Source of the DNA: Corallium rubrum
Lineage: Eukaryota; Cnidaria; Anthozoa; Scleralcyonacea; Coralliidae
Assembly (NCBI GenBank): GCA_964035015.1
Contig: OZ036016.1
Span: forward strand, 4,610,714 to 4,674,713
Reading direction: 5' to 3'
Length of the DNA: 64,000 nucleotides
A program made the translations under genes and the position numbers. This document shows, in pieces, positions 4,157 to 64,000 of this stretch (its first letter is position 1; every line of letters begins with the position of its first letter). The notes under the pieces were generated by a model. The model worked only from the letters and a program-made list of their open reading frames with translations. It was not told the DNA's origin and did not search any database.

Positions 4157-6238
4157 AGTGCCTATGACATGAAAAAATGGTATACGATTTTTTTGTATTA
4201 AGTGAAAGATGTACCTGTGAAAGGTAATCTCACGAAATTTGGCATCATTTTGTCGCATATTTTTCAAACTACGACTCTTCGAAGTTCACCTGAAACGACT
4301 CGAAGAGTGCGAAATTCCATCGCGCGGTCAGACCGGCTTATGACGTAGGCGTGTGGACACATCTCAAGTTGACTAAACAAAATAACAGGTATTATTAGCC
4401 GTTTTTGAGCAAATTGGGATGGCTATGATTCTGAATAAAACAACTTTATTTTAGCGTTATAGTGAAATTCTATATTACTGATGTGTTGATGATCTCTGGA
4501 TATGCATCTTTCCATTGAATCGCGAGTATAAACACTCCTAGTAAGAGTGAAGTTAGGTCAAGCAAAAACGTTTTGTTTAGTTTTTGATCAGCGTTCGAAT
4601 AAACGTCGTCGCCGTAAAAATGTTGAAGTGATCGCAGCAACGTCGTGAACAGAACCTTTATAGAGGGTAGAATGTTGGTCTAAGAATTACGTGTTTTGCG
4701 TGCAATCTTTGTGCAATTTTGTCGTCGGTCTGGTCATGGGATTTGCTAAAAGTTAGTATGTTATACTATATTACTATAACAATAATCACTTAGATATCAG
4801 TTTAGCAGTCATGTTACAGAGAACTGGTTTTCACTATAAATAAGATGACTTTAGTAATGTTAATGTTGGTCTTGAATGTATACACTATTTACTGTACAGT
4901 TGTCCGCATTCAATCCATGCATATATGTTCAACTTAATCTCTAGCGCGAGTTTCTTTACATATTATCAGTAATATTAAGTATTTGGTTATAACAAGGGTC
5001 TAGCAGGCGAATGCATGACCAACACAGTTTTGTCGCCTGCGCAAATTATGTCGTGATTGAACAAACTAGCTGAAATTGCATGAGTCGCTGAAATGTGGGA
5101 TATATAAACAGTAACTCAGAGCAAATTTGTCATAATAATAGGACCAAGAACCAGAGCGGAAATATTGATAACGCTAGACGACTCGAACTATAAATGTCGT
5201 AACTGATCGAAGTTTCGTATATCACAACAATCAGGTGGAATAGTATATTTTAGGGAACGGCCAATAAAATATATAAGATTATGTTTCGCCGCTATGATTA
5301 TGGACTATGCGATATGGATCAGCCGAAAAATGATTCGCATGCACCAGAGCAATCGCATGCACCAGAGCAATTTTGGACAGGTTTCACTGAGAAAACGAGA
5401 GCAGAAGAACGAAACGGAAATTATGTGTGATGTACAAAAATCATTTGCCTAGGCATGGTCCCGACTTTTGACTCACGTCACATCTTTGCTTGCGCATTTT
5501 AAAGACTTTGTGTTATCCGCAGTACTATTTGCTTTATAATTTTACGGGAATCTAGCTAAGACCCAACGTAATTTATCTGGACCCAGAAGCGAACACTATT
5601 GTATTGGAGTATTTCGGCAGTCGGCACACATGTGAATACTGGCTTGAGATGTGTGAATATATTGTATATTATATATAATAGAAACATATAGAATAGAAAA
5701 TATTGTTGCTTTAGTTCTATTCGTTTTGTTAATACTCGGCAATATTCAGAATAATTTACTATTAACTGTAACACTGCCAAATCTTTGGACAATATTTCCC
5801 GAAGGAATGTAACATCATCGACGAACCTCATCGACAATCGCCTCTCGACTGCATCATGATCTGATGGTTCATCACTATCAGCATCAACCAAAAACTGCTG
5901 CTTAATCATATCATTTGATTCTTCGTCTTCTATAGTAGCTGGTGAAACAAAATATTCGTTTTCTGACTCGTTTTCCAAAGCCCTATCTTGCTTATTTACT
6001 GTATCACCACAGTGACATTTACAATGAGTCCACACGCCTACGTCATCGCGGCCTAAACTCGGTCCCAGACTTTTCGTACTTTTTATTCGAAAATATGGCA
6101 AAATTGGCAACTTCAACGCGTTGTAACTCGAAAAATATTCATCAGAATTACGCCAAACTTTCTGAGACTATTATTTGGCTGAACATCTTTCAGTCTGTGT
6201 AAAAAATGCCATACTCATTTTTTCATGTCATAGGCACT
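4157..6238. mobile_element. 2.08-kb DNA transposon with TTAA target duplication
   Basis: The ends form a terminal inverted repeat starting AGTGCCTATGACATGAAAAA at 4157, with the same sequence inverted and ending at 6238. Both sides are flanked by TTAA (4153-4156 and 6239-6242). Similarity between the ends extends, more diverged, for about 200 bp inward. TTAA duplications are known for piggyBac and Kolobok transposons. Which superfamily applies cannot be told from the TIR alone. The interior holds only a partial minus-strand reading frame (5556-6116), so the copy is probably non-autonomous. Confidence 0.8.
5556..6116 (-). pseudogene. Decayed ORF inside the TTAA transposon
   Basis: The 186-codon frame reads inward from the right TIR of the element. 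The first 30 residues are basic. At about residues 29-36 there is WTHCKCHC, a Trp plus clustered Cys motif, followed by a long acidic stretch rich in Glu, Asp and Ser (about residues 45-90). The last third is hydrophobic and poor in coding character. Cys-rich modules of the P2X7-C-terminus type often sit in cnidarian transposon proteins, and this motif loosely resembles them; that link is inference. No DDE catalytic core is visible. Most likely it is the N-terminal remnant of the element's own protein rather than a host gene. Confidence 0.4.
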
Positions 6239-8490: not shown

Positions 8491-8659
8491 CAATTGAAAT
8501 ATAGTAAGGTTAGATATACTGCCGAAACAGAGAACGCAGGAGTCCGCTAACCGGTTTCGAGCGAAGACCCTTCGTCAGAGAGAAGGGCCTTCGCTCAAAA
8601 CGTTAGACTCCTACGTTCTCTGTTTCGGCAGTATATCTAACCTTACTCTATTTCGATTG
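8491..8659. repeat. Fold-back family A, copy 1
   Basis: The left arm begins GAAATATAGTAAGGTTAGAT and continues to the GCCGAAACAGAGAACG block. The right arm is its reverse complement. The centre carries the CTGACGA...GCTCGAAAC motif on the minus strand (TCGTCAG at 8572-8578), here with a damaged 3' part. Other copies: 16978-17790 (interrupted), 28696-28852, 33315-33370 (one arm), 35939-36090 and 57382-57582. Confidence 0.85.
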
Positions 8660-15619: not shown

Positions 15620-15704
15620 CTTTATTAAATATCAACGTTTCGGGGCAAGCCCCTCAGATATCTCGATAAAGGGACTTGCCCCAAAACGTTGATATTTAAT
15701 AAAG
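15620..15704. repeat. Palindrome, 30-bp arms, degenerate ribozyme-like centre
   Basis: The left arm CTTTATTAAATATCAACGTT is mirrored on the right. The minus strand carries CTGAGG, then a GGGGC/GCCCC-type hairpin, then GAAACGTT, a variant of the core seen in fold-back family A but lacking the conserved GA after CTGAN. Confidence 0.7.
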
Positions 15705-17661: not shown

Positions 17662-17895
17662 TACTGCCGAAACAGAGAATGTCAGTATGAGTCCAACGTT
17701 TCAAGCGAAGGCCCTTCAATCAGAGAGAAATGCGAAGACTACTATACGTTCTCTGTTTCGGCAGTATATCTATAATCTTACTATATTTCGATTGTTGTTT
17801 CAACACTGCCTACGCAGCTCGCTACTTTGATTAAACAATAATATGTACTTGCAATTTCTGACATTAATATTATATCTATTTAGCAGCTTTCTTAG

Positions 17896-18179
17896 CTTAA
17901 TCTTAATATAAATATCAATGCCCAGCATAATACACGAAGCAAAGCCATAAGTTTAAAAGTAATTTAATGAATCTAACGTTTCGTTGCTTCTCGCAACATC
18001 TTCAGAGAATGAATGAGGGAATAAATAATTACAAATATATAATAAATTATTTATTCCCTCATTCATTCTCTGAAGATGTTGCGAGAAGCAACGAAACGTT
18101 AGATTCACTAAATTACTTTTAAACTTATGGCTTTGCTTCGTGTATTATGCTGGGCATTGATATTTATATTAAGATTAAG
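17896..18179. repeat. 284-bp near-perfect palindrome, 135-bp arms
   Basis: Arms at 17896-18030 and 18045-18179 are reverse complements with a single mismatch seen and a 14-base loop. Each arm carries a hammerhead-like core (18067-18103 on plus, 17972-18008 on minus). The near identity implies recent formation or gene conversion between arms. GCTTTCTTAGCTTA-like sequence flanks both sides. Confidence 0.95.
18067..18103 (+). ncRNA. Hammerhead-ribozyme-like motif
   Basis: In order: TCT (stem I 5' strand), CTGAAGA (18070-18076), an unpaired T, a perfect 5-bp hairpin GTTGC/GCAAC with loop GAGAA, GAAACGTT (18093-18100) and AGA (stem I 3' strand). Core positions fit CUGANGA and GAAA with cleavage expected after GUU. 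Stem III would be only the self-complementary ACGT, so activity would need dimers. Stem I is 3 bp. The minus strand has the same motif by symmetry. Function is inferred. Confidence 0.4.
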
Positions 18180-18489
18180 ATACCGCCTGGATCATCAGTT
18201 GCTACTTTCTTAGCTTACACTTAGTCTGTTAATATCTTAACATAACAAACTTCTTTCATTCCTCTATTCAATATAATATCTAGACATCTAGTTCTTTTAA
18301 AAACCTAGCAGTTTTTCTTGTTTTATTTCGTCCATAAAAATACACCAGTATATTTCCTTCGGTATATTCAATAATTCAACAACGTAAGATGAAGAGTTAA
18401 GTCACTCGATATTACAGAAACTAGATTTCAGTTTTGAAATATCAAAAATATAAGTACCATTCATTATTCCACGACCTGCTCCCAAGTTG

Positions 18490-21899: not shown

Positions 21900-22470
21900 G
21901 ATTACCTAAATTTTAGCGAAGGGGGGACTAACATTTCGAGCTATTTTATACTCCAAAGGGCCTTCCCTCAAAACATCAGTACTTCATACTTCTAACTTAT
22001 CTCAGTAGTTTATTACTGTTAAGATTTCTATACATCGTAACACGCCGCCTATGCATCGCTGTACTTTTATATTACTCCATGACTTACTGTGACGAAGGTG
22101 TTTGACTCAGAACAACAGTGTTTCATTCGTTAAACTTGTCTCAGCAGTTCACGACCTCCTTTAAGAATATTTGGACATAGCACACTATCAACGTGTGGCA
22201 GTAGCACTCTACTTTTATATTACTCCATGGTTCATTCTGTGAAGTCTTTGACTCAAAGCGTCAGTATTTCGTTTTCTAAAATCTCTGCAACTTACTAGCT
22301 TTACGATTTTCTAAACATCAACACACTTCCTACACAGTACTCTACTTGTTATATTACTCCATGGCTTACTCTGATGAAGAGCTTTCGCTCAAAATATCAG
22401 TATTTCGTTCTCTGAAATCTCGCCAGTTTACCATCTTTAAGATTTTCTAAACATCGCATTGCTTATGCAT
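21900..22470 (+). repeat. Old, decayed 120-bp family array
   Basis: Four degenerate units share TACTCCATGGCTTACTCTGA, a TTGACTCAAA-like block, CAGTATTTCGTTCTCTGAAA and CAGTTTACCATCTTTAAGAT. These match the younger units at 28.0-30.8 kb. The ribozyme-like core is mutated (for example GAAA changed to AAAA at about 22389). Confidence 0.7.
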
Positions 22471-26724: not shown

Positions 26725-27960
26725 GTCTGGTCCATCACACCAACCTCGAAACACTACCGCTTACGAAGCACCTGTGATTATGAATTTGGAACCTTAGCTC
26801 TCCACCAAGCTTCAATAGTTCAGTAGTTCGATCCTTGTATGAGACCCAGAAATATTTAAAGTGCATATAACCCCAAATTTTTTATCATCTAAATACGTTC
26901 TACCTTTGGCAAATAGTTGAACAAGGAAATATTTTTTAGATTGGAGCAACCTTTATGGCTTTAACAGAGATTTTTGTTTTCAAAATGGTAATGAGATGAC
27001 GCCAAAGTAGTCATCATAACATTATCTATACAATATTTATTTGCGGGAGTGATATGACCCAATTCTTCCATGTGTGTTTGAACAACATGTTCCACATGTT
27101 GTATAAGGTTTTCCACAAAAATTATCAGCTAGTTTATCTTGCCAAAAAGAGAAAGAAAGCCAAATGACTACATAGACGCCATTTCATTACCATACTAGAA
27201 ATGCGAATCGCCAAAAAAACATTGAAGAATAGCTCCAATCAAAAAAATATTTCACTGAACAACTGTTTGCTCTATGTAGAACGTATTCAGATGATAAAAA
27301 ATTGGGTTTATATGCACTTTAAGGTTGACGAACGTCTACCAAACGGTTTGTTATATTCGACCTTCTCGGTTTGTTCCCGGCCACCTGCGTACATGGGCTC
27401 ATGCTAATTATTATTAATTCTTCTATAAAGAGCTGACAAATATGTCTTTCTTTTCACCAGAGGCAAAATTTACATTAAAGTGTAAAGGGGTCGCAATTCA
27501 TAACATGTGTACATGACTTATATTTATAACTTCTTGTTCACGACATGTGCTGAAGTATTCTGGTATAATACCGAACTGCCGACCACATGTGTGGATTACA
27601 ACAGATTATAAACTGAAAAACACATGCCGGAATTTCGGAAGCTAAGCGCCAGTAAAGCGGTCTTGGATTTTTGGAGAATGGCGAAACTATTTCATTTCAC
27701 ACGTGTTTATTTACTTATTCATTTATTTACTTACTAATATTGATCAAATGTGCTTGCGACACGAACCTTTCTCGCTTAATCTTCCCATTTTCGTGTTTTG
27801 ATCAAAATCTAATTGCTTTTTCTCTACACCCCCGCCCACAATAGTGTTGTACATATTTATATAACATGTACCAAGTGTCATGAAAGCCAAATGTTGCGCA
27901 GATAACGACGTAAAATACACCAGAGCAAGGTTGAAAGGTGATAAACTGTCGAGAATAGTT
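26725..27960. other. No gene; one SINE-like remnant
   Basis: 26795-26850 has a decayed tRNA-like stretch (AGTAGTTCGATCC as a possible B box) next to GAATTTGGAACCTTAGCTCT, shared with about 34797 and 57745. The frames 27201-27407 and 27744-28010 are unsupported. Confidence 0.35.
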
Positions 27961-27972
27961 TTGATAAGGAAA

Positions 27973-28059
27973 TACTGACGTTTCGGGCGGACCTTTTCAT
28001 CAGTGTGCAATGTGATGAAAATTTTACTCTGATGAAGGGCTCCGCTTGAAACGTCAGTA
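27973..28059. ncRNA. Inverted pair of hammerhead-like motifs
   Basis: On plus, 28025-28059 has TACT, CTGATGA (28029-28035), an unpaired A, a GGGC/GCTT hairpin, GAAACGTC (28048-28055) and AGTA. TACT and AGTA form a perfect 4-bp stem I, with cleavage expected after GUC. On minus, 28007-27973 has CTGATGA and GAAACGTC with an AGTA 3' strand but a CACA 5' strand. Stem III would be the self-complementary ACGT, so a dimeric form is required. Function is inferred. Confidence 0.45.
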
Positions 28060-28322
28060 TTTCGTTATTAAAACTAATCTCGCCAGTTTACCATCTTTTC
28101 ACTTTGCTCTATCTAAAACACTGCCTACATTGTGCTCGTTAAAATCAAACTTAGCGAAGTCGTAGTGCTCGCTGAAAACTATACAAACGAAGGCATAATT
28201 TGTGCCTGTTGACTGTTGACAAACGTAAACGTACTCTTACTGAACCAAGCTGCAGTGCTTGTGGAAAAAAGAAATATTTGTAGAGGTAAGACTTTTAAAT
28301 ATTTACGTAACTAATTCAGTAA

Positions 28323-28556
28323 ATGGGTATAACAATTGAGCAATATCGTGCCCAAATTGGTGCACACAATGTAAGAGTCAAAGAGTATTCAACTCGACAT
28401 GAAGGTGACTTTTGTGCTATAATGTTGATGTTATTTCAGCTGGTAGTAACAGTACTGGTATTATTAATATTGATACGAATATTTTGTCTGGGTGTATTAT
28501 ATTTGCCAACAAAGCGGTTGGTAGAACAATATATTAAAAATACAGTAGATCTGTAA
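28323..28556 (+). pseudogene. N-terminal fragment of a mobile-element ORF
   Basis: The 77-codon frame starts MGITIEQYRAQIGAHN, a start I recall from abundant cnidarian transposon proteins that go on to a 2A-type peptide and further domains. A hydrophobic stretch follows (about residues 37-60, MLMLFQLVVTVLVLLILIRI), then VLYLPTKRLVEQYIKNTVDL and a stop. The usual continuation is absent, so the gene is truncated, and the next 140 bases hold no matching frame before fold-back family A begins. Family recognition is from memory and not checked. Confidence 0.5.
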
Positions 28557-28695
28557 ATACTCTGGTGTCTGTTGCAATTAATAATATCAGCCTAGGGGTT
28601 TTTTCGGGCAATTTCGTAAAACATCAGAAACTATAAATCAGGAAATTCCTGCCATTTGAGGCAGCACTTCACTTGCGATAGTAATTCTAGTTTTA

Positions 28696-28852
28696 TCGAA
28701 ATATAGTAAGGTTAGATATACTGCCGAAACAGAGAACGTAGGAGTCTAACGTTTCGAGCGAAGGCCCTTCTCTGACGAAGGGCCTTCGCTCGAAACGTTA
28801 GACTCCTACGTTCTCTGTTTCGGCAGTAAATCTAACCTTACTATATTTCGAT
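28696..28852. repeat. Fold-back family A, copy 3 (best preserved)
   Basis: Near-perfect arms run from TCGAAATATAGTAAGGTTAG to its complement at 28852, with a tiny loop near 28771. The centre (28769-28802) has TCT, CTGACGA (28772-28778), A, hairpin GGGC-CTTC-GCTC, GAAACGTT (28792-28799), AGA. The shared tail TACACTGCCTACGCAGCACG follows. Confidence 0.95.
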
Positions 28853-28901
28853 TGTTGTTTCTACACTGCCTACGCAGCACGCTACTTTTATTACACTCTT
28901 C

Positions 28902-29265
28902 TTTTTACTCTGATGAATGGCTCAGCTCGAAACATCAGTATTTCGTTATTAAAACTATTCTCCACAGTTTACCATCTTTTCACTTTGCTCTATCTAAAAC
29001 ACTGCCTACACAGCACTCTACTTTTTACACAGATGAAGGACTCCGCTTGAAACGTCAGTATTTCGTTATTAAAACTATTCTCAGCAGTTCACCATCTTTT
29101 CACTTTGCTCTATCTAAAACACTGCCTACACAGTACTCTACTTTTTACTCTGATGAAGGACTCCACTGAAACATCAGTATTTCGTTATCAAAACTATTCT
29201 CAACAGTTTACCATCTTTTCACTTTGCTCTATCCAAAAACAATGCCTACCGCGCACTCTACATTT
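28902..29265 (+). repeat. 120-bp tandem units with ribozyme-like cores
   Basis: Three units with CTGATGA or CAGATGA at 28910, 29030 and 29150 (120-bp period), each followed by a GAAAC(A/G)TC and AGTA. Each unit continues TTTCGTTATTAAAACTATTC, CAGTTTACCATCTTTTCACT, TTGCTCTATCTAAAACACTG and CCTACACAGCACTCTAC. Because 120 is a multiple of three, a 40-residue repeat frame (LKRQYFVIKTIL...) stays open. I treat that as a by-product. Confidence 0.9.
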
Positions 29266-29289
29266 TTACACTCCCGTAAAATACACGAG

Positions 29290-29630
29290 CAGGGTGAAAT
29301 CAGAAAGGAGACAGCAATGAGAAGGAAGACTTAGGAGAACCTAAAGTCGTATTCTGATCGACGTAGTCATTTATAGCTTGTAGTCATTTATACTTTGACA
29401 GCACTGTATTACATGATGCAATTTTCCAATTACATGATGCTTTTTGTTATACAACTTGTCTCATAACGCCAAAGGCATTGACGTAATTCAGTTGCGAAAC
29501 AAGCCGCACGTGCGAATGAACCATTGCAGCATGTAACATGTTGTGTAGTGATTGAGATCGTTGGAGATAAGACAAGCTAGAATCTGACTCTAACAAAGTG
29601 AACTCAGATTTCAAATAAGCAAGCGAGCGA
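29290..29630. other. No recognisable feature
   Basis: Short spacer between the tandem units and the purine tract. Nothing supported. Confidence 0.3.
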
Positions 29631-29635
29631 GCGAG

Positions 29636-29802
29636 GAAGGAAGGAAGGAAGGAAGGAAGGAAGGAAGGAAGGAAGGAAGGAAGGAAGGAAGGAAGGAAGG
29701 AAGGAAGGAAGGGAGGGAGGGAGGGAGGGAGGGAGGGAGGGAGGGAGGGAGGGAGAGAGGGAGGAAGGAAGGGAGGAAGAGAGGAAGGGAGGAAGGGAGG
29801 AA
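29636..29802. repeat. (GGAA)n / (GGGA)n purine tract
   Basis: About 160 bases of pure purine on the plus strand, GGAA units changing to GGGA units at about 29711. The minus-strand frames of Pro-Ser-Leu repeats are simple-sequence artefacts. Long mirror-symmetric purine tracts can form triplex DNA. Confidence 0.97.
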
Positions 29803-30180
29803 GTGCAAGACTGGAGAACGTTGATCACTACATCAGTGTTAACTGCAAGCTAAAAATACTATACTAATTAACTTGAGTATTGTTATCTTAATTAGCTGAT
29901 AGCAAGGTAGCCGGGAGGGAAAACATAAAACCATTTAACAAGCATCTTTGACGTCATATGGTGATATTGATGGAAAATCTGGTTTCCATCTAGTTGTAAT
30001 TGTAATTTAGTTGTCAATTGATGGCTGATTTTTTAATAACAGTGCAATATTTAATTTCCACATAATAAAATACAACAAAAGAAATCAATTACAGAGACAC
30101 GGTTGTTGAACGTTATTTTAATTAGCACAAAACGTTTACTTCAAATATCGAGCAAAGTGAAAAGGCAGTAAACTGCCGAG
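29803..30180. other. No recognisable feature
   Basis: Unique AT-rich spacer. Nothing supported. Confidence 0.3.
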
Positions 30181-30199
30181 AATAGTTTTTCATCAGAGC

Positions 30200-30800
30200 A
30201 AAATGTTTTGAAGGACTCCGCTTAAAACGTCAGTATTTCGTTATCAAAACTATTCTCAACAGTTTACCATCTTTTCACTTTGCTCTATCTAAAACACTGC
30301 CTACACAGCACTCTACTGTTTACTCTGATGAAGGACTCTGCTTGAAACGTCATTATTTCGTTATCAAAACTATTCTCAACAGTTTACCATCTTTTCACTT
30401 TGCTCTATCTAAAACAATGCCTACAGAGCACTCTACTTTTTACTTTGATGAAGGACTCTGCTTGAAACGTCAGTATTTCGTTATCAAAACTATTCTCACC
30501 AGTTTACCATCTTTCACTTTGCTCTATCTAAAACACTGCCTACACAACACTCTACTTTTTACTCTGATGAAGGGCTCTGCTTGAAACGTCAGTATTTCGT
30601 TATCAAAACTATTCTCAACAGTTTACCATCTTTTCACTTTGCTCTATCTAAAACACTGCCTACACAGCACTCTACATTTTACTCTGATGAAGGACTCTGC
30701 TTGAAACGTCAGTATTTCGTTATCAAAACTATTCTCAGCAGTTTACTATCTTTTCACTTGACTCTATCTACAACACTGCCTACACAGCACTCTTTTTTGC
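30200..30800 (+). repeat. 120-bp tandem units with ribozyme-like cores, 5 copies
   Basis: Cores at 30325, 30445, 30564 and 30684, plus a decayed one at about 30212. The copies at 30560-30594 and 30680-30714 have intact TACT, CTGATGA, hairpin, GAAACGTC and AGTA. The 30441 copy has TTTGATGA, and the 30321 copy has ATTA instead of AGTA. Units are otherwise almost identical, so the array expanded recently. The 40-residue repeat frames (30342-30850) are rejected as genes. Confidence 0.92.
30560..30594 (+). ncRNA. Hammerhead-like motif, intact example
   Basis: TACT (30560-30563) pairs with AGTA (30591-30594). CTGATGA is at 30564-30570 and GAAACGTC at 30583-30590, with a short GGGC/GCTT hairpin between. 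Consensus hammerhead core residues are all present. The weak stems and ACGT-only stem III imply low monomer activity. Confidence 0.45.
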
Positions 30801-31496
30801 TTCAAATATATGTTTCTCTTAGCTCTATGTGTTTTACTTTGGCTAATTAAAAAACAACAACCCAAAAGCACTGGCTATATTTAGAAATAGCAAAACTATA
30901 ATCTAGCTAAATAGTACAATTTTCAGTTTCAACCACGAAAAGATAAAATTAAGATCTTCGTGACACAGAGCCCTATACGTTTACATACAGTGGTCCTTTC
31001 TTAACCGCGGGCCTTTTTTTAAACGAGTTTATGACTGGAGTGAGCAGATTGTGGGCGCGGTCGAGCCGACAGTTACAGAAATGTATCGAGCAGTACAAGA
31101 TCAGCGGTCGCTACCATGAGAAAAAGGCCATCTTTGTTCAGTCAGTTTTCACTCGATCCTCGCGTTGTTATAAGCAATAACTCATTGCTTAATAGCACTG
31201 TCAACTTGATATCTAGGATAAGGGTTTGTGTTGGAATTGGTTACAATAAAATAAATTACTGGATAGTTCGTGAGAAAAAAAGTGATAGCAAGGACGATTA
31301 GAATTAATTGACGCCATTTAATCTTCTCCTGTCGACGGATTCTCCTTATGGGACGAGTAAAACCTTCTGGTATTAGTGCAAAAAGATAAAGTTGTACCCC
31401 AAAAACAACAGGAGTGAAAAGGTTAATCAACAGTGTGAAAATTGTCTGTCATCTGGCGTTAGACAAAGTAGAAAGATGAAGTTGTTCCACAAAACC

Positions 31497-32961: not shown

Positions 32962-33180
32962 AGGTGTTGGTTTTACGGAGGGAGAAAAACCGGGGAACCC
33001 GACGAAAAACCCTCAGAGCACAGGAGAGAACAACTAAACTCTACTCACATAAGTCCCAAGCTGGTGGAGTACGGGGTTGTTCCCAAACGGTCACCCATCC
33101 AAGTACTAACCCCGTCCGACCAGGCTTAACTATTGGTGAGAGGCAGCGTCCTAACAGCACACGCCACTCGTGCTCCCCGG
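32962..33180 (-). repeat. 5S-rRNA-derived SINE, copy 1
   Basis: On the minus strand AGTTAAGCCTGGTCGGACGG followed by GGTTAGTACTTGGATGGGTG closely follows the internal control region of 5S rRNA (A box, intermediate element, C box). Body blocks GGGTTTTTCGTCGGGTTCCC and GGTTTTTCTCCCTCCG follow. Copy 2 is at 61637-61858 in the same orientation. It is not a 5S gene: the first and last stem strands do not match 5S. Confidence 0.8.
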
Positions 33181-35789: not shown

Positions 35790-36210
35790 AGAATGAAGCT
35801 CAGATCTGTACTATAAAACTTTTCAAAAATCAAGACCTTCTCTAGAGCTATGCAATGAACTAGAATAAAACTCAACATCTGTACTATGAAACTTTTCAAT
35901 AATCAAGAGCTCATGCAATGAACTAGAATAAACCTCAGTCGAAATATAGTAAGGTTAGATATACTGCCGAAACAGAGAACGTAGGAGTCTAACGTTTCGA
36001 GCGAAGGTCCTTCGTCAAAGAGAAAACGTCCGCGTAGACTCCTACGTTCTCTGTTTCGGCAGTATATCTAACCTCACTATATTTCGATTGTTGTTTCTAC
36101 ACTGCCTACGCAGCACGCTACTTTTATTGCACTATTTAAAATAAAACTCAGATCTGTACTATGAAACTTTTCAATAATCAAGACCATCGCTAGAGCTATG
36201 CAATGACTAC
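35790..36210 (+). repeat. Minisatellite, about 70-80 bp unit, split by a fold-back
   Basis: Units with CTCAGATCTGTACTATAAAA, CTTTTCAAAAATCAAGACCT and CTAGAGCTATGCAATGA lie on both sides of fold-back family A copy 5 (35939-36090). Confidence 0.8.
35939..36090. repeat. Fold-back family A, copy 5
   Basis: Arms from TCGAAATATAGTAAGGTTAG to its complement. The central core on the minus strand is TTGACGA...GAAACGTTAGA, with the first core C changed to T, so ribozyme activity would be lost. Confidence 0.9.
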
Positions 36211-36889: not shown

Positions 36890-38757
36890 CCGAAGTGGGA
36901 CTTGAACCCATGCACAACCTCCTATCGCCAGTGAAACCCTCTATAAACATTGACCAACTGGGACTTGATTTGAACGTAGATTGAATCATAGACTATGTAC
37001 AACCTTCTGATCGCCGTTGAGACGCTCCAACCATTGAGCTACTGAGACTCAGATGATTTGAACGTAGATTGAATATGTGTACAACCCACAACCTTCTGAT
37101 CACCAGTGAGACGCTCTAATCATCGAGCTACTGAGACTCAGATGATTTGAACGTAGATTGAATAATATGTGTGTACAACCCACAACCTTCTGATCGCCAG
37201 TGAGATGCTCTAACCATTGAGCTACTGAGACTCAGATGATTTGAACGTAGATTGAATATGTGTACAACACACAACCTTCTGATGACCAGTGAGACGCTCT
37301 AACCATTGAGCTACTGGGACTCAGTTGATTTGAACGTAGTTTGAATATGTGTACAACCCACAACCTTCTGATGACCACTGAAATGCTCTAACCATTGAGC
37401 TACTAGGACTCAGATGATTTGAACGTAGGTTGAATATGTGTACAACCCACAACCTTCTGATCGCCAGTGAGATGCTCTAACCATTGAGCTACTGAGACTC
37501 AGATGATTTGAACGTAGATTGAATATGTGTACAACCCACAACCTTCTGATCACCAGTGAGACACTCTAACCATTGAGCTACTGAGACTCAGATGATTTGA
37601 ACGTAGATTGAATATGTGTACAACCCACAACCTTCTGATGACCAGTGAGATGCTCTAACCATTGAGCTACTGAGACTCAGATGATTTGAACGTAGATTGA
37701 ATATGTGTACAACCCACAACCTTGTGATCACCAGTGAGATGCTCTAACCATTGAGCTAATATAGGACTCAGATGATTTGAACGTAGATTGAATATGTGTA
37801 CAACCCACAATCTTCTGATCACCAGTGAGATGCTCTAACCATTGAGCTACTGGAACTCAGATGATTTGAACGTAGATTGAATATGTGTACAACCCACAAT
37901 CTTCTGATCTCCAGTGAGATGCTCTAACCATTGAGCTACCGAGACTCAGATGATTTGAACGTAGATTGAATATGTGTACAACCCACAACCTTCTCATCAC
38001 CAGTGAAATGCTCTAACCATTGAGCTACTGAGATTCAAATGATTTGAACGTCACAATCTTCTGATGGCCAGTGAGACGCTCTTACCATTGAGCTACTGAG
38101 ACTCAAATGATTTGAACGTCACAATCTTCTGATGGCCAGTGAGACGCTCTAACCATTGAGCTACTGGGACTCAGTTGATCTGAACGTAGATTGAATATGT
38201 GTACAACCCACAACCTTCTGATCGCCAGTGAGATGCTCTAACCATACTGGGACTCAGATGGTTTGAATGTAGGTTGAGTTCGATGTATGACATTATATAC
38301 TGCTATATGTGCAAGTATGATGATATTAATGTCGTAATGCACACAACCATCTAATTGTTAGTGAGATGCTCTAACCATTGAGCTATAGAGACTCAGATGA
38401 TTTGAACGTAGGTTGAATATGTGTACAACCCACAATCTTCTGATCACCAGTGAGATGCTCTAACCATTGAGCTACTGGGACTCAGATGATTTGAACGTAG
38501 GTTGAATATGTGTACAACCCACAATCTTCTGATGACCGGTGAGATGCTCTAACCATTGAGCTACTGAGACTCAGATGATCTGAACGTAGGTTGAATATGT
38601 GTACAACCCACAACCTTCTGATCACCAGTGAGATGCTCTAACCATTGAGCTACTGAGACTCAGATGATCTGAACGTAGGTTGAATATGTGTACAACCCAC
38701 AACCTTCTGATCACCAGTGAGATGTTCTAACCATTGAGCTACTGGAACTCGGATAAG
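36890..38757 (-). repeat. Satellite of tRNA-like units, about 91 bp, roughly 20 copies
   Basis: On the minus strand each unit has TCAGTAGCTCAATGGTTAGA (A-box-like), GCATCTCACTGG, GATCAGAAGGTTGTGGGTTG (partial B box) and a non-tRNA spacer TACACATATTCAATCTACGT then TCAAATCATC. Copies differ at the ACTGG(C/T)GATC/ACC site. Two units are shortened (38041-38160), and one break at about 38275-38370 holds unrelated sequence. Related single units lie on plus at 56380-56870. The minus frame ending near 38928 (VAQWLEHLTG) is a known type of tRNA-like shadow. Confidence 0.93.
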
Positions 38758-38999: not shown

Positions 39000-41625
39000 G
39001 AACTTCCTCTAAGGCGGACACCTCTCTAAGACGGACACCTCTCTAAGGTGGGCACCTCTCTAAGATAGACACCTCTCTAAGGCGGACACATCTCTAAGAT
39101 AGACACCTCTCTAAGATAGACACCTCTCTAAGATAGACACCTCTAAGGTGGACACCTCTAAGGTGGACACCTCTCTAAGACGGACACCTCTCTAAGACGG
39201 ACACCTCTCTAAGATAGACACCTCTCTAAGATAGACACCTCTCTAAGATAGACACCTCTCTAAGATAGACACCTCTCTAAGATAGACACCTCTCTAAGAT
39301 TGACACCTCTAAGGTGGACACCTCTAAGGTGGACACCTCTCTAAGACGGACACCTCTCTAAGACGGACACCTCTCTAAGACGGACACCTCTCTAAGATAG
39401 ACACCTCTCTAAGAGACACCTCTCTAAGATAGACACCTCTCTAAGATAGACACCTCTCTAAGATAGACACCTCTCTAAGATAGACACCTCTCTAAGATAG
39501 ACACCTCTCTAAGATAGGCACCTCTCTAAGATAGACACCTCTCTAAGATAGACACCTCTCTAAGATAGACTCCTCTCTAAGATAGACACCTCTCTAAGAT
39601 AGACACCTCTCTAAGATAGACACCTCTCTAAGATAGACACCTCTAAGGTGGACACCTCTAAGGTGGACACCTCTCTAAAACGGACACCTCTCTAAGACGG
39701 ACACCTCTCTAAGACGGACACCTCTCTAAGATAGACACCTCTCTAAGAGACACCTCTCTAAGATAGACACCTCTCTAAGATAGACACCTCTCTAAGATAG
39801 ACACCTCTCTAAGATAGACACCTCTCTAAGATAGGCACCTCTCTAAGATAGACACCTCTCTAAGATAGACACCTCTCTAAGATAGACTCCTCTCTAAGAT
39901 AGACACCTCTCTAAGATAGACACCTCTCTAAGATAGACACCTCTCTAAGATAGACACCTCTCTAAGATAGACACCTCTCTAAGATAGACACCTCTCTAAG
40001 ATAGACACCTCTCTAAGATAGACACCTCTCTAAGATAGACACCTCGAAGGCGGGCACCTCTCTAAGGCGGACACCTCTCTAAGGTGGACAGCTAATCTTG
40101 GCCACTCATTACTTACTATAGTAAAACTCTTTCTAAGACGGACACCTCTCTAAGGCGGACACCTCTCTAAGGCGGACACCTCTAAGACGGACACCTCTCT
40201 AAGCCGGACACCTCTCTAAGGCAGACACCTCTCTAAGATAGACACCTCTCTAAGGTGGACACCTCTCTAAGGCAGACACCTCTCTAAGGTGGACACCTCC
40301 CTAAGGCAGACACCTCTCTAAGGTGGACACCTCTCTAAGGCAGACACCTCTCTAAGGTGGACACCTCTCTAAGGCAGACACCTCTCTGAGGTGGACACCT
40401 CTCTAAGGCAGACACCTCTCTAAGGCAGACACCTCTCTAAGGCAGACACCTCTCTAAGGTGGACACCTCTCTAAGGCGGACACCTCTCTAAGATAGACAC
40501 CTCTCTAAGGTGGACACCTCTCTAAGGCAGACACGTCTCTAAGATAGACACCTCTCTAAGATAGACACCTCTCTAAGGTGGACAACTCTCTAAGATAGAC
40601 ACCTCTCTAAGGTGGACAACTCTCTAAGATAGACACCTCTCTAAGGTGGACACCTCTCTAAGGCAGACACCTCTCTAAGATAGACGCCTCTCTAAGGTGG
40701 ACACCTCTCTAAGATAGACGCCTCTCTAAGGTGGACACCTCTCTAAGATAGACACCTCTCTAAGGTGGACACCTCTCTAAGGCAGACACCTCTCTAAGAT
40801 AAACACCTCTCTAAGGTGGACACCTCTCTAAGATAGACACCTCTCTAAGGTGGACACCTCTCTAAGGCAGACACCTCTCTAAGATAGACACCTCTCTAAG
40901 GTGGACACCTCTCTAAGGCAGACACCTCTCTAAGATAGACGCCTCTCTAAGGTGGACACCTCTCTAAGGCAGACACCTCTCTAAGGCGGACACCTCTCTA
41001 AGGCAGACACCTCTCTAAGGCGGACACCTCTCTAAGATAGACACCTCTCTAAGGCGGACACCTCTCTAAGATAGACACCTCTCTAAGGTGGACACCTCTC
41101 TAAGGCAGACACCTCTCTAAGATAGACACCTCTCTAAGGTGGACACCTCTCTAAGGCAGACACCTCTCTAAGATAGACACCTCTCTAAGATAGACACCTC
41201 TCTAAGGTGGACACCTCTCTAAGGCAGACACCTCTCTAAGATAGACACCTCTCTAAGGTGGACACCTCTCTAAGGCAGACACCTCTCTAAGATAGACACC
41301 TCTCTAAGATAGACACCTCTCTAAGGTGGACACCTCTCTAAGGTGGACACCTCTCTAAGGCAGACACCTCTCTAAGATAGACACCTCTCTAAGGTGGACA
41401 CCTCTCTAAGGCAGACACCTCTCTAAGGTGGACACCTCTCTAAGGCGGACACCTCTCTAAGACGGACACCTCTCTGAGACGGACACCTCTCTAAGACGGA
41501 CACCTCTCTAAGGCAGACACCTCTCTAAGGCGGACACCTCTCTAAGATAGACACCTCTCTAAGATAGACACCTCTTTAAGATAGACACCTCTAAGGCGGA
41601 CACCTCTCTAAGACGGACATTTACT
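39000..41625 (+). repeat. 17-bp satellite, about 150 units
   Basis: The unit is TAAGATAGACACCTCTC with variants at AAG(ATAG / GTGG / GCAG / ACGG). The left third is mostly ATAG units; the right part is an ordered alternation of GTGG, GCAG and ATAG. A block with two 15-bp GTGG units, three ACGG units and a shortened AAGAGACACC unit is repeated about 334 bp apart (short unit at 39411 and 39745), showing segmental duplication. A non-repeat gap is at about 40090-40135. Confidence 0.97.
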
Positions 41626-56379: not shown

Positions 56380-56880
56380 TTGTTCTAAGCCTCATTAGCT
56401 CAATGGTTAGATCATCTCACTGGTGATCAGAAGGTTACTAGTTGTACACGTTTGTAACCTTTGCTCTACCATTTGAGTCTCAGACTCTCAGTAGCTCAAT
56501 GGTTAGATCTCACTGGTGATCTGAACGTTACTAGTTGTAGATATATGTAACCTTTGCTTTGCCATCTGAGTCTCAGTAGCTCAATGGTTAGATCATCTCA
56601 CTGGCAATCAGAAAGTCGTGTGTTCGATTCTCAGAGAGTAAAATTTCATAACAACTTGGAAATTTAAAACCGGCAATAGTACTAATCCTATTAGTGCTTA
56701 ATACATTCTGACTTCTAAAGTAAACAAAAGTTCGTGTACTGTATATAATTGAATTAATTTTAGACCCAACCTATACATTCGAATCATCTGAGTCTCAGTA
56801 GTTCAATGGTTAGAGTGTCTCACTGGTGACCAGAAGATTGTGAGTTCGAGTCTCGCTTGGGAACTCAGGAATTTCGCGAG
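56380..56880 (+). repeat. tRNA-like repeat units, plus orientation
   Basis: Four units with CTCAGTAGCTCAATGGTTAG (A box). Two keep a good B box (GTGTTCGATTC at about 56619; GAGTTCGAGTC at about 56851). They match the minus-strand satellite at 36.9-38.8 kb but with intact Pol III boxes, so they may represent its SINE ancestor. No unit folds as a complete tRNA with a clear anticodon arm. Confidence 0.75.
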
Positions 56881-57381
56881 TAAAACATAGCTCGATGAAC
56901 GTTTGCACACAATAAGGTAACAATAGTACTTTAGACTCGCGAGTCTAAAGGTAAGAGCGACAATTAGACAGCATGGTCACGCAGAGAGGCACTCCAGTTG
57001 ATCTCGATATGTCAACAGTGCAACAGAACAGAACAGAACGAAATAGAAACATAACGACATAGAGAAACTAACGACATAAAGGAATTAAATTTCGAATCGT
57101 TGTATTTTTGCACAAAAATATGACACTCCAGTAATCACAATCTTTCCATACAATCCACTGAAGTGTCTTATCTGTAATTTGTGTATTTCTGATCTTTATC
57201 AAGAGTATTAAGTGCATTCTTATTACCAGTATACCAACGCTAGTAGCAAACGTGTAGTAATAGTTAGTCCGATAGTTTACTGGTCGAAGATTCGGTTCCT
57301 GTCTTGGTCTGATCACAAAGAGTTTTTAAAAAATCTGTACTGAACCTGACGGACGTCTACCAAACGGCTGTTGCATTATTA

Positions 57382-57582
57382 ATCGAAATATAGTAAGGTT
57401 AGATATACTGCCGAAACAGAGAACGTAGGAGTCTAATGTTTCGAGCGAAGGCCCTTCGTCAGAGTCCCTTCGTCAGAGGCCCTAACGTTAAGGTTTCTCT
57501 CTGACGAAGGGCCTTCGCTCGAAACGTTAGACTCCTACGTTCTCTGTTTCGGCAGTATATCTAACCTTACTATATTTCGATT
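57382..57582. repeat. Fold-back family A, copy 6
   Basis: The longest copy. The loop region has extra CGTCAGAGTCCCTTCGTCAG sequence. The plus-strand core has TCT (57496-57498), CTGACGA (57499-57505), hairpin, GAAACGTT (57519-57526), AGA. The shared tail CAACACTGCCTACGAAGC follows. Confidence 0.95.
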
Positions 57583-57729
57583 GTTGTTTCAACACTGCCT
57601 ACGAAGCACGCTACTTTTATTTCACTGTTGCATTATTACACGTGCACTCACCAAGCTTGTACCACATACTGCAGGTATACATAACACCCATGACATTTAA
57701 CTACATTTTATATACAAACGCTTTCGCTA

Positions 57730-63245: not shown

Positions 63246-63770
63246 ACTAGCTGTAACTCAAACTTTAGCTCGAACCTCGAATTCAAACTTATGATATTCA
63301 CCATAATTTTAATCGTGTGAACTAGAAGGTTTTTTTGTTTACTTTCAGGAGGTCGTTAGCGTGCATAAGTACTTAACATTCAACTGTCAACCTGTCAATT
63401 TCGTTGTTAATGAGTGGTTTAATTCTTACCGTAAGCTAGCACGCGATTATCGAAGGCCTTTAAAATAGCAGCAACTTCTTTAAATTAAAGCCTATTACTA
63501 CCTTAATATATTAGACCATCGTTTGTAGCTTTTTTTTGAACGAAAATCATCTCTTTGGCAGTGCTATGGAAAAACCTAATGATTCGTGTCTAACAGCTAT
63601 CGTGACGAGACGAGACGGTTTATGTAAATGAAATACAATTTAATGCAACTATGGATTTTATATCGTAGCTTATATCTTGCTCCTTAAGTCGCCAACTATA
63701 AACAAACTGTGGTTACCCTGAAGTCACGAAGATGTTCGTAAACGCATATTTTGTATTACGAGAGTGTAAT
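63246..63770. other. Intronic, nothing recognised
   Basis: No exon with splice signals recognised. Confidence 0.3.
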
Positions 63771-63789
63771 AAAGTACAATGCTGCGTAG

Positions 63790-64000
63790 CCTGTGTTTTT
63801 GATAAGTGAAAAGATGGTAAACTGTCAAGAATAGTTTTAATAACGAAATACTGACGTTTCAAGCTGAGCCCTTCATCACAGTAAAATGTAGAGTGCTTGC
63901 GTACGCAGTGTTTTAGAGAGAGCAAAGTGAAAAGATGGTAAACGGCTGAGAATAGTTTTGATAATGAAACACTGACATTTGGAGCGCAGTCCTTCGTCAG
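63790..64000 (-). repeat. 120-bp ribozyme-like family, minus-strand copies
   Basis: Two units on the minus strand. The left has TACT, GTGATGA (first core base C changed to G), GAAACGTC (63860-63853) and AGTA. The right, at the window edge, has CTGACGA and a mutated AAATGTC. Both are predicted inactive. The array continues past 64000. Confidence 0.85.

Follow-up and report, generated by a model that had tools for sequence, protein, structure and literature searches.

Minimal hammerhead ribozymes linked to Penelope-like elements (PLEs) have been described in thousands of copies in animal genomes, where they occur in tandem and are thought to act as dimers (PMC7761336, PMC6155905, PMC7229834). 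In PAc, a Poseidon PLE of Anolis, the hammerhead is located near the start of the open reading frame (ORF) and cutting was reported only when the PLE protein was added. The cut lies 26 nucleotides (nt) into the ORF and reverse transcription starts 111-118 nt into it, in an AC-rich stem loop (PMC11167929). For one coral genome, more than 6,000 type I motifs belonging to 16 families, 1,508 of the motifs being canonical, have been reported (PMC7229834). Here, we analyze a 64,000-nt stretch of Corallium rubrum DNA (assembly GCA_964035015.1, contig OZ036016.1, positions 4,610,714 to 4,674,713, forward strand), hereafter the window, that contains units of a dispersed 120-bp repeat with a hammerhead-like motif. 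We propose, with a probability of roughly 0.7, that the 120-bp unit is a non-autonomous PLE-type repeat carrying a PLE-type minimal type I hammerhead, that it is copied as multimers and that its ribozyme could form only as a dimer. This reading is drawn from the core, the covarying stems I and II, the A or U following A9, the loopless palindromic stem III, the motifs found at the ORF boundaries of a tandem PLE of the same genome, the inverted partial units on the 5' side of insertions and the position of array ends 81-92 nt past the predicted cut.

Three intact motifs of the family, already singled out in an earlier note on this DNA, are indeed present and read TACT-CTGATGA-A-hairpin-GAAACGTC-AGTA. 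They are listed below with the other members of the family in the window; scores refer to R1, a covariance model built from other families of the genome.

28025-28059, plus strand: intact PLE-type minimal hammerhead motif, in a single 120-bp unit; 4 of 4 stem I pairs; 39.8 bits with R1
30560-30594, plus strand: intact hammerhead motif with 4 of 4 stem I pairs, cleavage predicted after the GTC of GAAACGTC; 40.0 bits with R1
30680-30714, plus strand: intact hammerhead motif, adjoining the motif at 30560-30594; 4 of 4 stem I pairs; 33.4 bits with R1
30321-30355, plus strand: strict core (30325-30351) with a broken stem I, ATTA in place of AGTA
27922-28137, no single strand: head-to-head pair made of an inverted partial unit and the unit 28033-28137; arms 27922-28011 and 28021-28110, 81% complementary
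28914-29272, plus strand: three-unit array of the 120-bp family, hammerhead cores decayed
30147-30189, minus strand: inverted partial unit on the 5' side of the five-unit array
30209-30797, plus strand: five-unit array of the 120-bp family
63761-63996, minus strand: two more units of the 120-bp family, close to the window end
21955-22464, plus strand: old diverged tandem copies of the 120-bp family

The motifs at 30560-30594 and 30680-30714 are the sole neighbouring intact pair in the window. Decayed cores are found at 28910-28936 and 29150-29175 (GAAACATC), at 29030-29056 (CAGATGA) and at 30445-30471 (TTGATGA), and the inverted partial unit of the head-to-head pair has a core on the minus strand (27977-28003) with zero stem I pairs. 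The region 28025-30714, previously taken for one tandem array, corresponds to three separate insertions of the dispersed family (27922-28137, 28914-29272 and 30209-30797). Between them lie simple repeats and an element of a second family, F2 (28695-28852).

The motif contains the hammerhead core, CUGANGA, GAAA and a NUH triplet before the cut. The hammerhead-like core recognized in the earlier note, with its expected GUC cut triplet, is therefore retained, with two amendments: the A that follows CTGATGA is one nucleotide beyond the usual core, and stem II is weak. In two of the three intact motifs stem II has 4 pairs including G-U, and in the third it has 3 pairs in another register. A strict pattern, CTGATGA-N(4-20)-GAAACGTC, was searched in the 474 Mb genome and gave 1,322 + 1,612 = 2,934 matches, compared with 6 for the reversed pattern. 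The mean number of strict motifs per window was 0.0 in 20 first-order Markov copies, both strands included. These counts rule out a chance origin of the motif.

The strict pattern fixes the core and leaves stem I and the inner part of stem II free, so that pairing in these regions is a test of the structure. The first 100 of the 2,934 strict matches, all on contig C1, gave 94 unique rows, which fell into 17 flank clusters (one with 75 rows), and one representative of each cluster was retained whatever its stems. Stem I pairing averaged 3.0 of 4 pairs, a value reached in 0 of 5000 trials with re-dealt downstream flanks, which gave 1.93; slid registers gave 1.29-2.06 pairs. When exactly one base after CTGATGA was left unpaired, at least 3 stem II pairs flush with GAAA were formed in 10 of the 17 clusters, compared with 1.2 for shuffled hairpins. 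Such pairing was seen in 1, 0 and 1 clusters when none, two or three bases were left unpaired, respectively. Hence, most families carry a single additional nucleotide that separates A9 from stem II. This base is A in 5, T in 4 and G in 1 of the 10 paired clusters, and A in 41, T in 4 and G in 1 of 46 unique rows.

A second alignment, A2, comprised 12 sequences whose families have visible stems, namely 7 of the 17 cluster representatives, the motifs of L095, L165 and L171, and two window families. It excluded the 10 remaining representatives, one of which stands for the 120-bp family, as well as the PLE motifs L166, L169 and L170 of alignment A1, which have a longer stem III. In A2, 91.6% of cells are paired, versus 55.8% after shuffling and at most 48.2% in slid registers, figures that lean towards the hammerhead structure since the families were hand-picked. 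Cells changed on both sides numbered 37, against 11.9 in shuffles, and the count of pairs showing a both-sided change (7 of 8) did not exceed that of shuffles, 159 of 500 of which reached it. Compensatory changes across genomic copies, which the earlier note had called for, are thus present both in the 17 clusters and in the 12 hand-picked families, and stems I and II are backed by covariation. In most families a single base is inserted between A9 and stem II, which stays within the one or two nucleotides allowed in the hammerhead class; according to PMC10085705, known alignments tolerate an insertion of one or two bases next to CUGAnGA. As judged from its sequence, the motif is a real hammerhead-type feature of a known kind, the published class of PLE-type minimal hammerheads.

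The genome contains at least 143 GIY-YIG matches (150 of 1,845 candidates scored). One of these loci, L169, is a tandem PLE with a period of 2,710 nt and an 830-aa frame bearing RVT_1 and GIY-YIG domains. Its ORF boundaries, three out of three, carry TGTA-CTGAAGA-T-GGCA...TGCC-GAA-ACATGT-T-TACA, that is, the core, an extra U, a loopless palindromic stem III and stem I. The kinship with PLEs put forward earlier is thereby strengthened. A strict descriptor recognized a same-strand motif in 12 of 30 other GIY-YIG loci (0.0 in shuffles); 6 motifs also occur on the opposite strand, several of them within F2 elements or inverted partner copies. The motif of L143-L151 and L166 is located about 150-175 nt beyond the domain match. 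From the three L169 boundaries and the 12 same-strand motifs, the motif class is, by its sequence features, that of PLEs; the extra nucleotide is common in it, not universal. Two further features of L169 may be mentioned. Its two 830-aa frames stand in tandem with identical translations and adjoining partial copies, and the element looks recent. In addition, at 4430-4462 the PLE start codon ATG sits within the hammerhead stem III ACATGT, which places the predicted cut right behind the start codon.

The insertions of the 120-bp family also have a PLE-like anatomy, with head-to-head 5' pieces and a preferred 3' end; L169 itself has different ends. The 143 GIY-YIG places include 30 close pairs, of which 24 have the minus/plus (head-to-head) order, none plus/minus, 5 plus/plus and 1 minus/minus. 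Around 100 hammerhead places, an inverted copy within 140 nt was found upstream in 28 cases and downstream in 2, with 0 and 0 in shuffled flanks. The same head-to-head build is seen in F1, F2 and F3, the element families of the window.

The predicted cut falls after unit position 23. In 15 of 23 arrays the 3' end is at unit positions 104-115, 81-92 nt past this cut and just after an AC-rich stretch. Subtracting the two positions reported for PAc, we obtain a start of reverse transcription 85-92 nt past its cut (from PMC11167929). Our comparison indicates that most of the array ends reflect a feature different from the ribozyme cut, at a place where the start of reverse transcription would be expected. 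In the PLE family of L143, three members (L143, L144 and L147) separate from the six remaining ones next to a TA repeat, some 78 nt past the cut.

Arrays range in size from 1 to over 20 units and were found at many places on several contigs (40 of 1,160 candidates scored). Their make-up was analyzed with 157 units from 24 arrays, filtered for score (>85) and nearly full length, and it bears on the idea that the family is a classical metazoan retrozyme, in which transcripts are cut to 120-nt monomers, circularized by a host ligase and copied by a reverse transcriptase running round the circle to yield a new tandem array. Such circles exist in a coral, according to PMC7229834, and tandem arrays of this size range would fit. 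Divergence is lower within arrays (4.8%) than between arrays (6.4%), and 75 of the 157 units have their nearest relative in their own array. At sites 7, 37, 100 and 108, moreover, 5, 6, 4 and 8 of the 21 arrays with at least three units are uniform, while random dealing gives 1.9, 2.7, 2.0 and 3.0. All this is in keeping with a retrozyme. On the other hand, both alleles of these same sites occur together in 16, 15, 17 and 13 of the 21 arrays, with alleles common to several arrays, and site 108 is mostly a C/G transversion, which makes repeated mutation unlikely. Copying round and round a single circle would give uniform arrays and is disfavoured; the observed mix would fit a multimeric RNA template or subsequent exchange between arrays. 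An end within 3 nt of the cut, as a retrozyme would have it, is seen in only 2 of 23 arrays, L013 (at the cut) and L030 (one base short), and most arrays end away from it. Finally, the hammerhead of the 120-bp unit is minimal, not of the canonical kind with loop contacts, which is present separately in this genome. A retrozyme origin is for these reasons unlikely, and the suggestion in the earlier note that 120-nt units circularize and spread runs counter to the allele mixing and to the array ends.

Several results weigh against a PLE-type repeat copied as multimers. Besides the two arrays that end at the cut, 6 of 23 end elsewhere, the third copy of L169 ends 34 nt past the cut and not 81-92, and the AC-rich stretch of the 120-bp unit folds weakly (-1.0 kcal/mol). 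The motif of 10 of the 30 PLE loci (L143-L151 and L166) lacks the extra nucleotide and has an AACGTT stem III. A tblastn search with 4 PLE frames against the window, L001-L138 and L172-L176 found PLE coding pieces by 120-bp arrays only at L002, inverted. No PLE containing the 120-bp sequence itself was found in the 30 of 143 GIY-YIG loci examined, where weak matches to the 120-bp profile were limited to L153, L158 and L165. Variation in the 120-bp family is lower at the 11 core positions than elsewhere in the unit (0.019 vs 0.040), a difference that is not significant (p 0.17), and the core with its four stem I pairs is kept in 119 of 257 relaxed matches. With Rfam, there was no hammerhead match in the window or in L001-L008 at gathering thresholds, and none in 27900-30850 or around the L008 motif, a copy with a long stem II, with E up to 10. 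The motifs of the 120-bp family do not reach the gathering cut-off of Hammerhead_1 (RF00163).

The many decayed cores and the non-significant core conservation would also suit a plain satellite, that is, a PLE-derived hammerhead relic that has no ribozyme function and that unequal exchange and duplication have spread and homogenized. A higher-order repeat points in the same direction: in L021 (1413-2468), a block of four 120-bp units is present twice, as a local duplication. However, a mobile step is needed to explain arrays that have a preferred 3' end and are spread over many places on several contigs, and the covariation of the stems between families argues for selection on the motif, in the ancestors at least. 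We consider a satellite of this type quite improbable.

As a positive control for Rfam, the genome contains canonical type I hammerheads, with at least 47 matches listed, 40 of them over the cut-off (74 of 61,716 candidates scored). RF00163 matches 8 of 8 fetched canonical loci, and 7 of 7 inspected lack the extra nucleotide. These canonical hammerheads (L177-L184), one family of which is near-identical at many places, are, from their sequences, likely to be classical retrozymes. Model R1 was built from 12 other motifs, two from other window families and none from the 120-bp repeat. It recovered the three intact motifs with E-values of 1.4e-9, 1.7e-9 and 1.6e-7, and gave 175 matches with E up to 1 across 21 fetched repeat loci, a count that includes other families. 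R1 was trained on the same core, so that these E-values measure likeness and not activity. A covariance-model match, the check envisaged in the earlier note, was therefore missing with Rfam even at E 10 and obtained with a model from other families of the genome. The Rfam hammerhead model thus misses the PLE-type minimal class, and scans that rely on it undercount such ribozymes. Taken as a whole, the interpretation of the earlier note is partly supported.

Stem III pairs only between two motifs, ACGU with ACGU; its letters are too constant for a covariation check. As ACGU cannot fold back on itself, a lone motif has no stem III, and two neighbouring motifs can form one. The self-complementarity pointed out previously thus holds, and from the letters it would permit only a dimeric hammerhead. 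The minimum-energy fold of a two-unit RNA is not a hammerhead, a result to which we give no weight as folding programs lack tertiary contacts. In a transcript of neighbouring units of our proposed PLE-type repeat, ACGU would pair with ACGU to form a double hammerhead able to cut after GUC. With a weak stem II and no loop pair seen for tertiary contacts, slow cutting, or cutting assisted by bound PLE protein, is likely. The reverse transcriptase/endonuclease of a PLE would then copy mostly uncut multimers in trans, with reverse transcription initiated directly behind the AC-rich stretch at about unit positions 83-108. RT and GIY-YIG coding sequences, which characterize an autonomous PLE, were not found in the 120-bp unit by tblastn in the window and array loci. 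More tentatively, and with rather low confidence, the unit may be about the smallest complete PLE passenger possible, made only of a hammerhead and a start of reverse transcription and copied in trans as uncut multimers. Its ribozyme would belong to a PLE subclass requiring an unpaired A or U after A9, would work only as a dimer and probably only with bound PLE protein, and cutting would end the copying round rather than start it. A 120-bp repeat present in many arrays, with little beyond a ribozyme and a likely start of reverse transcription, offers a compact natural system in which to ask whether the ribozyme generates the template or resolves the product.

A 120-nt unit also amounts to 40 codons, and one of its frames stays open across several arrays, which raises the question of a protein-coding tandem repeat. 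A stop occurs in this frame in just 1 of 104 exact 120-nt units. Nevertheless, 30 changes are synonymous where 27.2 are expected without selection, the third-position excess has a p of 0.087 and 53 of the 157 units are not 120 nt long. The frame is open without codon selection and a coding array, which we regard as extremely improbable, was rejected.

Two other hammerhead-bearing element families are present in the window.

28695-28852, no single strand: F2, head-to-head palindrome with a hammerhead motif at 28772-28799
57369-57594, no single strand: another F2 palindrome, motif at 57501-57528
17893-18182, no single strand: F3, palindrome with one motif per strand (17975-18005 minus, 18070-18100 plus)

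The F3 motifs have an extra T and a 5-bp stem II. The F2 palindrome (28735-28812) scores as a mir-2041 microRNA precursor on both strands (43.7 bits, cut-off 70), and several of the microRNA-like matches that a relaxed Rfam scan gave below cut-offs fall on it. F2 is a foldback element and could mislead microRNA searches. Outside the described families, R1 also matched 8541-8586, 17687-17731, 35983-36026 and 15626-15664 on the minus strand and 15655-15698 on the plus strand, with E-values of about 1e-6 to 0.08. Tandem units of about 89-93 bp, part of them tRNA-like by eye (GAGCTACTGAG / CTCAGTAGCTC...), occupy 36966-38744 and 56391-56576. A minisatellite with a 17-bp unit, in about 154 copies, extends over 39017-41613. 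A 5S rRNA match at 33060-33170 (minus strand; 38.6 bits, cut-off 38) is perhaps a pseudogene.

Neither the 120-bp unit nor the fixed A or U after A9 was found in the literature searched, outside which the likeliest primary papers lie, and no priority is claimed; papers listed by a text search with the motif letters have unrelated titles. Schistosome W-elements and Sm-alpha are likewise satellite-like repeats with type I hammerheads and an extremely short stem III, some of them shown to cut; they belong to another animal group and their units measure hundreds of bp (PMC8490949). The (+) hammerhead of chrysanthemum chlorotic mottle viroid (CChMVd) resembles the present motif in a single respect, one extra nucleotide between A9 and stem II, and is part of a viroid RNA with which no kinship is claimed. 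There, an A at this position is reported to lower the rate moderately and a U to raise it 3-4-fold, with C and G very harmful (PMC3705267). Metazoan non-LTR (long terminal repeat) retrozymes share with the 120-bp family short, AT-rich, non-coding tandem repeats and a type I hammerhead. Their RNAs are described as about 170-400 nt long with mostly canonical hammerheads (PMC7229834), whereas the present unit is 120 nt long, its hammerhead is minimal and the array make-up argues against circle copying. The closest ribozymes are the minimal type I PLE hammerheads (Cervera and de la Pena 2014; Lunse, Weinberg and Breaker 2017; as presented in PMC7761336 and PMC6155905), which have a helix III without non-conserved nucleotides, are linked to PLEs, occur in tandem and have been proposed to act as dimers. 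Compared with that description, the present unit is a 120-bp non-coding tandem repeat, and one A or U follows A9 in most families of this genome. As described in PMC11167929, PAc parallels the 120-bp family in its tandem copies, in a start of reverse transcription 85-92 nt past the cut and in insertions that end at this start. In contrast to PAc, the 120-bp unit has no ORF and its AC-rich stretch is barely a stem loop.

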